A DNA stretch of 64,000 nucleotides from Erysipelotrichaceae bacterium. Its GTDB lineage: Bacteria > Bacillota_I > Bacilli_A > ML615J-28 > CAG-313. Numbering within the stretch: the stretch's first letter is position 1; each line of letters starts with the position of its first letter. The position numbers were made by a program, and so were the translations under genes. The stretch spans positions 62,001 to 126,000 of the forward strand of contig SVBG01000008.1 in the NCBI GenBank assembly GCA_015059015.1. The letters run 5' to 3'. Below, piece after piece: positions 8,788 through 12,142 of the stretch. The notes beneath the pieces were generated by a model. That model made no database searches and was not told where the DNA came from. It saw nothing but the letters and a program-made list of their open reading frames with translations.

Positions 8788-10917
8788 ATGAATTTAGTAA
8801 TAGTGGAATCACCAGCTAAGTGTAAGACAATTGGAAACTATTTAGGTAGTGATTATGTTGTTGAATCTAGTATTGGTCATATTCGAGATTTAAGTATAAA
8901 AGGTAAGGGTGGATTTGGTGTAGATATTAATAATAATTTTGCACCTGAATATGTAGTATTAAAAGATAAGGTTGATATTGTTGATAAGTTAAAAGATTTA
9001 GCAAGTAAAGCTGATCATATTTATCTTGCAACTGACCCCGATAGAGAAGGAGAAGCTATTAGTTGGCACTTAAGTGAAGTTTTAGAACAGCCTAAGAAAC
9101 GTGTGTCACGTATTGTATTTAATGAAATTACTAAGAGTGCGATTTTAAAAGCTATTGCGAATGACCGTGATATTGATATGAATCTTGTTCATTCTCAAGA
9201 AACACGTCGTATTTTAGATAGAATTATTGGTTTTAGATTGTCAAGTTTACTTCAACAAAAGATTGGTTCTAAGAGTGCTGGGCGTGTTCAAAGTGTTGCG
9301 TTAAAATTAGTAGTTGATCGTGAAAAAGAAATTGAAGCGTTTAATAGTGAGGAGTATTGGGATATTACTGCTTATTTATTAAAAGAAACTGCTAGTAATT
9401 CTTATCATCTTAAAGCTAAGTTAATTGGTTATCAAGGTGATAAGATTGAAGTTGCTAATGCTGAAGATGCTAAAAGAATTGTTGATTCTTTAGATGATAA
9501 TTTTATTGTTAAAGATATTCAAAAGAAACGTCGTAATCGTTCGTCTAAACCTCCGTTCATTACATCAACTCTTCAACAAGATGCTGGTGTTAAGTTTAAT
9601 TATAATGCAAAAAGAGTAATGGGTATTGCTCAAAAGTTATATGAAGGTATTGAACTTGCTGATGAACGTGTTGGTTTAATTACTTATATGAGAACTGACT
9701 CAATTCGTTTAAGTGATGAATTTGTTGATTCTGCTAAAGAGTTTATTACTGAAAAATATGGTAAAGAATATTATAAAGGTGTTAAAAAATCTAGTACTAA
9801 AGCTAAGAATATTCAAGATGCACATGAAGCTATTCGTCCTACTAGTATTAGAAGAACTCCTGAAAGTGTTAAAAAATATTTATCTCTTGAAGAATTTAAG
9901 ATTTATTCGTTAATTTATAATCGTGCACTTGCATCTTTAATGAGTGATGCTGTGTTAGAAGATACTAAAGTTGAAGTTGTAAATAATGATTATATTTTTG
10001 GCTTAAATGGTGAAATTACTACTTATGATGGTTTCTTACGTGTTTATGAAGAAATGAGTATTGAAGCTAGTGATCCAGAAGCATTAGATGTTTTGCCAGA
10101 TATGACTGTCGGAGAGATTTTAATTCGTGAGAATGTTGAAACTGAACAAAAGTTTACACTTCCTCCATATCGTTATTCTGAAGCAAGACTTATTAGAAAA
10201 ATGGAAGAACTTGGAATTGGTCGTCCTTCTACTTATGCACTTACTATGGAAACTCTTCGTGCAAGAGCTTATGTTACAATGGAAAAGAAAGCTTTTGTTC
10301 CAACTAGTCAAGGTGTTTTAACATCTGAACAATTAGAATTATTTTTTAGTTCAATTATTAATGTTAAATATACAGCTAAGATGGAAAGTGCTCTTGATGA
10401 AATTGCTGAAGGTAAACTTGTTTGGTATAAAGAAATTGGTGATTTCTATAATATGTTTGCACCTCTTATTGAAATCGCAAGAGATAATATGGTTAAGATT
10501 TATCCTAAAAAAACTGATGAGTTTTGTCCTGAGTGTGGATGCCCATTAGTGATTAGACGCGGTCCTTTCGGTGAATTTACGGCTTGTTCTGATTATCCTA
10601 GTTGTAAATATATTAAAAAGACACCTAAACCTGAACCTGTCAAAACCGGAGTTATTTGTCCTGTTTGTGGTGAAGGTGAAATTGTAGAAAGAACAAGTGG
10701 TAGGGGTAGAAGTAAAGGTGCATTATTCTATGCATGTGATCGCTATCCTAAGTGTCGTACAACATATTCTGGTATTCCAAATGGTGAAAAGTGTGAAGTA
10801 TGTGGTGGTGTAATGATTACAACTAGTGATGGCATAAGATGTGGCAATGAAAAGTGTAAGACTGTTATCGCACTTAAAAAAGCATTATTCGAAAAGAAAA
10901 ATAATGATGAAAAGTAA
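8788..10917 (+). CDS. topA: DNA topoisomerase I (type IA)
   Basis: Relaxes negative supercoils by cutting and passing one DNA strand. The 709-residue protein begins with a Toprim domain (LVIVESPAKCKTIGNYLG, TDPDREGEAISWHL). The active-site tyrosine is Y300 in GLITYMRTDS, and the GIGRPSTYA motif follows. The C terminus (about 585-700) holds three zinc-ribbon modules with paired cysteines (CPECGCP, CPVCGEGE, CEVCGG), as in Bacillus TopA. It has its own consensus promoter, is divergent from the XRE regulator and is followed by a candidate small RNA. The ATG is seven bases from AGGAAGG. Confidence 0.97.
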   Translation: MNLVIVESPAKCKTIGNYLGSDYVVESSIGHIRDLSIKGKGGFGVDINNNFAPEYVVLKDKVDIVDKLKDLASKADHIYLATDPDREGEAISWHLSEVLEQPKKRVSRIVFNEITKSAILKAIANDRDIDMNLVHSQETRRILDRIIGFRLSSLLQQKIGSKSAGRVQSVALKLVVDREKEIEAFNSEEYWDITAYLLKETASNSYHLKAKLIGYQGDKIEVANAEDAKRIVDSLDDNFIVKDIQKKRRNRSSKPPFITSTLQQDAGVKFNYNAKRVMGIAQKLYEGIELADERVGLITYMRTDSIRLSDEFVDSAKEFITEKYGKEYYKGVKKSSTKAKNIQDAHEAIRPTSIRRTPESVKKYLSLEEFKIYSLIYNRALASLMSDAVLEDTKVEVVNNDYIFGLNGEITTYDGFLRVYEEMSIEASDPEALDVLPDMTVGEILIRENVETEQKFTLPPYRYSEARLIRKMEELGIGRPSTYALTMETLRARAYVTMEKKAFVPTSQGVLTSEQLELFFSSIINVKYTAKMESALDEIAEGKLVWYKEIGDFYNMFAPLIEIARDNMVKIYPKKTDEFCPECGCPLVIRRGPFGEFTACSDYPSCKYIKKTPKPEPVKTGVICPVCGEGEIVERTSGRGRSKGALFYACDRYPKCRTTYSGIPNGEKCEVCGGVMITTSDGIRCGNEKCKTVIALKKALFEKKNNDEK

Positions 10918-10954: not shown

Positions 10955-10983
10955 TTGCAATATGTATTTTATTGTGGTATATT
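10955..10983 (+). promoter_or_regulatory. Promoter of the candidate small RNA
   Basis: TTGCAA (10955-10960), 17-bp spacer and TATATT (10978-10983) with extended TGG. The layout matches the promoters of glgB and of the gene at 16675. The start would be near 10990, with no reading frame behind it. Confidence 0.7.
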
Positions 10984-10989
10984 GTTAGT

Positions 10990-11087
10990 GCAAATCACGA
11001 GAGTGATTTGTAACATATCCCCTATATTTTATGTGTGCGCACACATACCCTTCCTGACTAGTGGTCCCCCCCACTAGTCATTTTTTT
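10990..11087 (+). ncRNA. Candidate C-rich trans-acting small RNA between topA and ftsY
   Basis: About 98 nt with no start codon plus ribosome site, placed between its own promoter and a strong terminator. Hairpin 1 (10991-11010) is a perfect 8-bp stem, CAAATCAC with GTGATTTG, capped by a GAGA (GNRA) tetraloop. Hairpin 2 (11031-11046) is a 16-bp perfect palindrome, ATGTGTGCGCACACAT. Hairpin 3 (11055-11080) is a 10-bp stem, TGACTAGTGG with CCACTAGTCA, with a TCCCCC loop and seven T residues. Single-stranded C-rich pieces (ATCCCCTA, ACCCTTCC and the terminator loop) stand out in this AT-rich genome. They resemble the UCCC motifs by which staphylococcal Rsa-type sRNAs and RsaE/RoxS pair with Shine-Dalgarno sites. 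CCTTCCT (11049-11055) is complementary to AGGAAGG, the ribosome site of topA. The SRP RNA signature is absent. Function is inferred only. Confidence 0.72.
11055..11087 (+). terminator. Intrinsic terminator of the small RNA
   Basis: Perfect 10-bp stem (11055-11064 with 11071-11080), loop TCCCCC, then seven T residues (11081-11087). Confidence 0.92.
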
Positions 11088-11101: not shown

Positions 11102-11130
11102 TTGAAAAAAAACATAAATTGTTGTATAAT
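11102..11130 (+). promoter_or_regulatory. Promoter of ftsY-ylxM-ffh
   Basis: TTGAAA (11102-11107), 17-bp spacer, TATAAT (11125-11130). Confidence 0.8.
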
Positions 11131-11167: not shown

Positions 11168-12142
11168 ATGGCTTTTGGATGGTTATTTGGAAGAAATAAA
11201 AAGAAAGATGAAAAAGCAAAAAAATATCAGTTAGGGATGAAAAAAACTAGAACTGGTTTTTTAGGCAAATTAAAAGCAGTATTATCGGGATATAGTCAAA
11301 TTACTGAAGATTTATTTGATGATTTAACTGATGTGTTTATTATGGCAGATATTGGTGTTGAAACAACACTTAATTTTATTGATGCATTAAGAGATGATCC
11401 ACGTGTTGAAGAATGTGAAAGTGCAGAAGAATTACAACCTATTATTGTAGATAAAATGTTTGATCTATATTTAAAAGGGGAAATTGTTAATAATAACTTG
11501 AATATTCAAAAAGATGGGTTAAGTGTTTTTTTATTTGTAGGTGTAAATGGTGTTGGTAAAACAACTACAATTGCTAAAATTGCACATCGTTTAAAAAATG
11601 AAGGTAAAAAAGTTTTACTTGCTGCAGGTGATACATTTAGAGCTGGTGCAGTTGATCAATTAGAAGAATGGGCAAAACGTGTCAATGTTGATATTGTAAT
11701 TAAAAAAGGAGCAACTGACCCTTCAAGTGTAATTTTTGATGCTGTAAAAAGAGCTAAAGAAGGTAATTATGATGTTCTTTTATGTGATACAGCAGGACGA
11801 CTTCAAAATAAAGCTGGTCTCATGGCTGAACTTGCAAAGATGAATAAAGTAATTGAACGTGAAATACCAGGTGCACCTCATGAAACATTACTTGTAATTG
11901 ATGCAACAACTGGACAAAACGGTTTAAGTCAAGCTGAAGCATTTAATGAAGTAACAAATGTTACTGGTGTTATTTTAACTAAACTTGATGGAACATCTAA
12001 GGGTGGAATTGTTCTTGCTATAAGAGATAAATATAATCTACCAATTAAGATGGTTGGTCTTGGTGAAAAGTTAGATGATTTAGAATATTTTGATTTAGAA
12101 GACTATATTATGGGTCTATTTGATGAGGAAGAAGATGAGTGA
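11168..12142 (+). CDS. ftsY: Signal recognition particle receptor FtsY
   Basis: The SRP receptor GTPase docks ribosome-SRP complexes at the membrane through Ffh. Its NG domain shows G1 GVNGVGKT at 125-132, DTFRAGAVDQLEEWA, G3 DTAGRLQNKAGLM and G4 TKLDGTSKGG. At 324 residues the long acidic A domain of E. coli FtsY is absent. In its place is a short basic segment (FGRNKKKDEKAKK), as in many Firmicutes. It is first in the conserved ftsY-ylxM-ffh operon and ends in a TGA that overlaps ylxM. Confidence 0.97.
   Translation: MAFGWLFGRNKKKDEKAKKYQLGMKKTRTGFLGKLKAVLSGYSQITEDLFDDLTDVFIMADIGVETTLNFIDALRDDPRVEECESAEELQPIIVDKMFDLYLKGEIVNNNLNIQKDGLSVFLFVGVNGVGKTTTIAKIAHRLKNEGKKVLLAAGDTFRAGAVDQLEEWAKRVNVDIVIKKGATDPSSVIFDAVKRAKEGNYDVLLCDTAGRLQNKAGLMAELAKMNKVIEREIPGAPHETLLVIDATTGQNGLSQAEAFNEVTNVTGVILTKLDGTSKGGIVLAIRDKYNLPIKMVGLGEKLDDLEYFDLEDYIMGLFDEEEDE

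Follow-up and report, generated by a model that had tools for sequence, protein, structure and literature searches.

The stretch of DNA analysed here (64 kb, referred to as the window) carries, in the gap between topA and ftsY, a predicted small RNA (sRNA) gene made up of three hairpins, the last of them a terminator, and two C-rich linkers, motif 1 and motif 2 (Table 1). The gene is present as a single copy in its own genome. Both the promoter with an extended -10 and the terminator stem of 10 pairs followed by T7, on which the original prediction was built, are present in the sequence, and C runs are as rare as it had claimed, as only 8 runs of at least four C occur on the + strand of the 64 kb, two of them within the sRNA. 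Two of its structural statements held in part: the GNRA-capped hairpin is there, but the GNRA cap is confined to the window's species and its neighbours while the stem itself is conserved, and the proposed 16-bp palindrome is a 16-nt palindrome, again specific to the species and its neighbours, whose stem has 6-7 bp and not 16 bp. Within the window's genus, the loop of hairpin 3 exposes a C run. The MFE of the sRNA is -33.8 kcal/mol versus -12.4 +/- 2.45 kcal/mol for shuffled sequences (z -8.7; 0/200 shuffles). Promoter-like matches in the window numbered 7 versus 6.2 expected by chance, and terminator-like matches 2 versus 0.6. Since single matches of either kind are common by chance, the proof of the sRNA unit is comparative and comes from 97 homologs.

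Table 1. Features of the sRNA locus in the window and of predicted target and sponge loci elsewhere
Feature	Position	Strand	Description
topA	8788..10917	+	upstream neighbour of the sRNA
sRNA promoter	10955..10983	+	TTGCAA (10955-10960), 17-nt spacer, TATATT (10978-10983), extended -10 TG
sRNA gene	10985..11087	+	predicted transcript of ~98-103 nt
Hairpin 1	10990..11012	+	arms CAAATCAC / GTGATTTG, loop GAGA; loops of relatives differ
Motif 1, unpaired linker	11013..11027	+	ACATATCCCCTATAT; predicted main seed
Hairpin 2	11031..11046	+	ATGTGTGCGCACACAT, 16-nt palindrome, 6-7 bp stem
Motif 2, C-rich linker	11043..11054	+	ACATACCCTTCC; overlaps part of the 3' arm of hairpin 2
Terminator hairpin 3 and T7 tract	11055..11087	+	stem TGACTAGTGG...CCACTAGTCA, 10 pairs
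Separate ftsY promoter	11102..11130	+	TTGAAA-17-TATAAT, 3' of the sRNA terminator
ftsY	11168..12142	+	downstream neighbour of the sRNA
Toxin-like peptide loci	G000 C3:3376, 36930, 37397, 129069; C7:102773, 106164, 107859, 108255; C10:37409, 123849		outside the window
Candidate G-rich sponge	G000 C3:217633 (L224); G004 C8:28929 (L390)		~90 nt

BLAST detected the sRNA in just two genomes (92% and 84%), both from the window's genus, where the C-rich linkers are identical while the two arms of hairpin 1 differ in sequence. Because nucleotide similarity did not lead beyond the genus, we turned to synteny and covariance models, and further homologs were obtained from the topA-ftsY gap of relatives. 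A covariance model built from three sequences (R1) found more homologs in the family, its successor R2 recovered the sRNA in a second family of the order (eight genomes), and R3 detected homologs in 78/395 sampled genomes of the class, with E down to 1e-13. These belong to eight families (f1, 10 genomes; f2, 13; f10, 19; f13, 30; f8, f15, f21 and f22 together, 6), and the strict filters applied to the 395 genomes make 78 a lower bound. The range of the sRNA, which the original prediction had put too low, is the whole class together with mobile elements. The near relatives of the window's species that carry it are MAGs of gut Bacilli/Firmicutes (goat, water deer). One host genome (G129) is presumably that of Acholeplasma laidlawii PG-8A; its homolog has the -10 box at 352,869-352,874, which puts the predicted start at about 352,880 on the + strand. 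Two others, G087 and G137, are Xianfuyuplasma coldseepsis zrk13 (PMC8397711) and Hujiaoplasma nucleasis zrk29 (PMC10470597), respectively. X. coldseepsis zrk13 (CP048914) has three copies, at 1345908-1346008 (+), 413314-413414 (-) and 83812-83911 (+). In one sister genus, the covariance model search left 4/5 genomes without a copy, indicating that the RNA can be lost, which speaks against a strictly essential role. One genome (G027, locus L133) shows two copies about 450 nt apart, at 1501-1613 and 2057-2132. A search of the literature, supplementary files aside, returned no published description of the sRNA.

The original prediction had staked itself beforehand on the hairpins being found in relatives, and there the stems are conserved. 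Among nine family homologs, 92.7% of cells are paired with two-sided changes at 23/24 pairs (0/500 shuffles), and the alignment of 97 homologs gives 94.8% paired cells, two-sided changes at 22/22 modelled pairs and 573 two-sided cells versus 134 +/- 10 in shuffles; these alignments were fitted to the covariance model, so that the pair counts lean towards structure, a bias that the size of the margin makes unimportant. When the partner was slid by 1-3 columns as a control on the 97 homologs, pairing fell to 31-43%. Compensatory changes occur at modelled pairs of hairpin 1 and at 6/6 pairs of hairpin 2, where 99.5% of cells are paired. Between the stems, the two linkers are near-invariant across the 97 homologs: the class consensus of motif 1 is CUUAUCCC[C/U]UACAU (as DNA, ACTTATCCC[CT]TACAT, with ATCCC[CT]T in 94/97), and that of motif 2 is ACAUCCCCUUCC (as DNA, ACATCCCCTTCC, with CCCCTT in 86/97). 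A promoter, called at 8 or more of 12 matches with the -10 immediately before hairpin 1, stands at the expected place in 94/97 homologs versus 8/97 control windows, and a U tract closes the 3' end in 88/97. In Izemoplasma-type homologs (e.g., L161 2001-2103), we also observed a second potential hairpin (CCCTTTTTATAGGG, then a T run) past the terminator, and the true 3' end of this type may lie ~20 nt further.

The gene lies downstream of topA at 56/96 loci, 54 of these within 195 nt, and upstream of ftsY at 47/96, with both neighbours present at 44/96. Elsewhere the surroundings change: many f10 genomes have the sRNA followed by a peroxiredoxin-like gene or an ABC transporter, and its neighbour in f2 is a lipoprotein, an SGNH-hydrolase-like gene or a pseudouridine-synthase-like gene (names assigned by eye). 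Family f13 carries a second chromosomal copy, 3' of a ~640-aa protein family (L162, L146, L193, L197, L150, L172, L194, L196). Several of these second copies adjoin an Hsp20-like or small membrane protein. These neighbourhoods point to an ancient gene of the class that has paralogs; conserved in it are the gene order, both C-rich linkers and the stems.

Copies were also found 3' of large serine recombinase genes at ten loci (L127, L128, L130, L132, L156, L166-L169, L182), four of which are IMG/VR contigs. Where the recombinase gene is intact, the sRNA lies 35-44 nt past it, and the intact cases have two recombinases in tandem (Pfam Resolvase and Recombinase). Several of these loci adjoin the 3' ends of tRNA-Leu, tRNA-Cys or tmRNA, and one mobile sRNA sequence type is common to two host families. 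From this repeated position beside serine recombinases we conclude that copies are carried by integrating elements or prophages, at the element border. GenBank phage records gave no match to the sRNA.

Predicted targets were sought in the window's genome (G000), which was read in stretches covering about 95% of it, 72 kb of C9 (N) and ~18 kb being left out. The second-best covariance model hits in G000 and G003 (L112 and L114), tried as sRNA copies, were rejected because they are actually the antisense strand of peptide leaders, and these matches led us to the target leaders. G000 contains 14 occurrences of AGGGGATATG, the complement of motif 1, and this word ranks first of 230 GGGG-keeping permutations (permutation mean 1.4); the 13-mer AGGGGATATGTTA is present 5 times versus a permutation mean of 0.08. 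The enrichment is owed to a single exact 10-mer and, for the most part, to a single family of paralogous genes. Eleven of the 14 occurrences are in short-peptide leaders, one is in a ~90-nt unit, one is coding and one is the sRNA itself; apart from the last two, all are intergenic leaders. Across the genome, a duplex scan with a cut-off of -18 kcal/mol gave 30 sites compared with 10-29 for flank-shuffled versions of motif 1, no excess, and we therefore do not claim a large regulon.

The peptide genes occupy ten loci, one apparently degenerate, and encode hydrophobic peptides of 31-47 aa (mostly ~31) with K/R tails, for example MSDLIRLITEIIRLVSILLKFLCSIIKNKRK. Searches against Pfam and NCBIfam placed them in no family above cut-off, with one sub-threshold hit to DUF5316. 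In each of their leaders, a G-rich site lies just 5' of CUCUUCUUC, which is able to close the Shine-Dalgarno sequence (SD) AGAAGGAGG, and most leaders have a second G-rich site close to the SD. Short upstream ORFs are also seen at the peptide loci. For motif 1 with these leaders, predicted duplex energies are about -19 to -25 kcal/mol; the gain on co-folding is -11 to -17.5 kcal/mol versus about -5 kcal/mol for shuffled leaders, the best of 20 shuffled leaders equalling 2/9 peptide leaders and the sponge candidate. Downstream of the peptide gene we noted by eye a converging unit with GAAGAAGAG, a promoter-like sequence of its own and a shared terminator. Convergent type I toxin-antitoxin loci are known from the Fst/par and TxpA/RatA types, and the predicted targets resemble them in their ~31-aa hydrophobic K/R-tailed peptides, sequestered SD, seemingly convergent antisense unit and shared terminator. 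They differ in that the sRNA, encoded far from the peptide genes, would add a second input in trans. Judged by these features, the peptide loci look like type I toxin-antitoxin loci with an extra trans-encoded RNA input. Only G000 and G003 showed leaders of these peptides with a motif 1 site, which therefore cannot be the class-wide target. As possible sites beyond this genus, AGGGGATAWG in the family's other genera and TAAGGGATAAG in Izemoplasma-type genomes were rejected, matches to the former being mostly in coding sequence and those to the latter mostly the sRNA genes themselves.

Over 178 nt, the G000 and G004 copies of the ~90-nt unit are 94% identical. Besides a promoter-like start and a terminator, the unit contains two G-rich sites to which motif 1 is complementary. 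By analogy with RosA, which together with RsaI represents the known sponges of RsaE/RoxS systems (PMC8216469), it is a candidate sponge for the sRNA.

Its place between topA and ftsY, with topA 34-195 nt upstream at nearly all topA-linked loci, could suggest that the sRNA is a transcribed terminator or leader of this region without trans function. We consider this highly improbable, as 94/97 homologs have their own promoter, the sRNA terminator (11055-11087) precedes a separate ftsY promoter, downstream genes differ among homologs and the same promoter-hairpin-terminator unit recurs on mobile elements and at loci unrelated to this one; this recurrence identifies it as a gene and not as a topA or ftsY leader. 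A relation to RsaE/RoxS, which is under the control of ResDE/SrrAB and Rex, deserves more weight. Both are ~100 nt long and have a terminator hairpin and several UCCC(C)U motifs, UCCCCU seeds among them. The RsaE seed UCCCCU is known to pair with AGGGGA ribosome-binding sites, e.g., that of lrgA (PMC6435200); for the sRNA described here, pairing with G-rich leaders or ribosome-binding sites is predicted and a G-rich sponge is possible. The Rfam RsaE model aligns end to end, below threshold, so that the sRNA could be a distant orthologue of the Staphylococcus and Bacillus RNA, diverged beyond that model. This is nevertheless unlikely. Rfam 15, searched with the window and the homologs at gathering and permissive thresholds, gave no family above threshold, whether ribosomal leader or other known RNA. 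The RsaE model (RF01820) reached 13.7 bits in the window and 22.1 in L108, the best homolog tested, against a gathering score of 79, and it passed its cut-off in 0/395 class genomes, whereas the same model detects the B. subtilis control. Equal or higher scores came from sRNA71 (RF03534, Staphylococcus; 25.4 bits in the window, gathering 50) and FsrA (RF02273; 24.2 bits in L118, gathering 80), weak matches that stem from the C-rich linker and hairpins, and the fold of sRNA71 differs by its long 5' stem. In RoxS, CCCCUUUGUU is duplicated in C-rich regions 1 and 3 (PMC4409812), a duplication present in 0/97 homologs. RsaE carries C motif 1 in the loop of stem 1 and two further motifs together in the linker that joins its two stems (PMC6435200), whereas the sRNA described here has three covarying stems, with stem 2 flanked on both sides by a C-rich linker, and the topA-ftsY neighbourhood. 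On these sequence comparisons it is a new sRNA family, RsaE/RoxS-like in its predicted mode of action, with membership in RsaE/RoxS unsupported by the tests. The original proposal of a new C-rich sRNA of RsaE/RoxS-like layout belonging to no known family agrees with the compensatory stems, invariant linkers, own promoter and sub-threshold Rfam scores.

The near-invariance of the linkers across the class, although mRNA targets should drift, would also fit linkers that bind a protein, such as an RNA chaperone or a KH/CSD-type protein, the RNA then regulating or titrating that protein without pairing to mRNA. We judge this improbable, given that the linkers are complementary to a G-rich site that is over-represented and located in leaders and that RsaE-like sRNAs likewise keep C-rich seeds between genera. 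Taken together, the locus almost certainly encodes a stand-alone conserved RNA. As in trans-acting C-rich sRNAs, the gene stands alone with its own promoter and terminator and has conserved seeds, predicted to be single-stranded, between covarying stems. We infer that it is transcribed, and action through C-rich base pairing is quite probable. The full reading, a ~100-nt regulatory RNA that is transcribed on its own, belongs to a non-Rfam family and pairs in trans with G-rich leaders through its C-rich linkers, is only a little less so.

According to this pairing model, the three covarying hairpins would keep motif 1 (ACUUAUCCC[C/U]UACAU) and motif 2 (ACAUCCCCUUCC) single-stranded. That the C-rich linkers are unpaired points to a role as antisense seeds directed at G-rich leaders, of the kind demonstrated for RsaE/RoxS (PMC4409812; PMC6435200), and these seeds would act in trans on G-rich stretches of mRNA leaders, at or near ribosome-binding sites, changing translation or stability of the mRNA in the RsaE/RoxS manner. 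The mRNAs with AAGGGGAU-type leaders are the predicted targets; in the window's species, the best are the leaders of the multicopy ~31-aa hydrophobic, lysine-ended type-I-toxin-like peptides. Motif 1 would pair there with AGGGGAUAUG or AAGGGGAUGUG, immediately 5' of the anti-Shine-Dalgarno arm that closes the ribosome-binding site. As this site is next to the SD and not in it, both repression, by locking the SD hairpin, and activation, by preventing it, are possible, and we lean slightly towards repression of the peptide genes. The short G-rich RNA encoded elsewhere in the genome may titrate the sRNA. For control of toxin-like peptides by the sRNA in the window's genus, we see a roughly even chance.

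In the lineage of gut Bacilli and of Acholeplasma- and Izemoplasma-type bacteria, transcription factors are few and little is known of post-transcriptional control. To our knowledge, few trans-acting sRNAs are kept beyond a genus or family. RsaE has been described as the sole sRNA besides 6S RNA common to S. aureus and B. subtilis (PMC4409812), and the range of the sRNA presented here, from gut Bacilli to Acholeplasma-type and Izemoplasma-type bacteria, is comparable or wider. Our analysis provides a covariance model, invariant seeds, a first set of predicted targets and cultured host species, and reveals copies of a host regulatory RNA on mobile elements. As a tentative wider picture, which we hold to be possible but less likely than not, this ancient sRNA of eight families, including Acholeplasma- and Izemoplasma-type bacteria, may be a core post-transcriptional hub whose integrase-side copies let temperate elements manipulate the host network, while toxin-like genes would have evolved leaders under its control, with the G-rich sponge as its counterpart.
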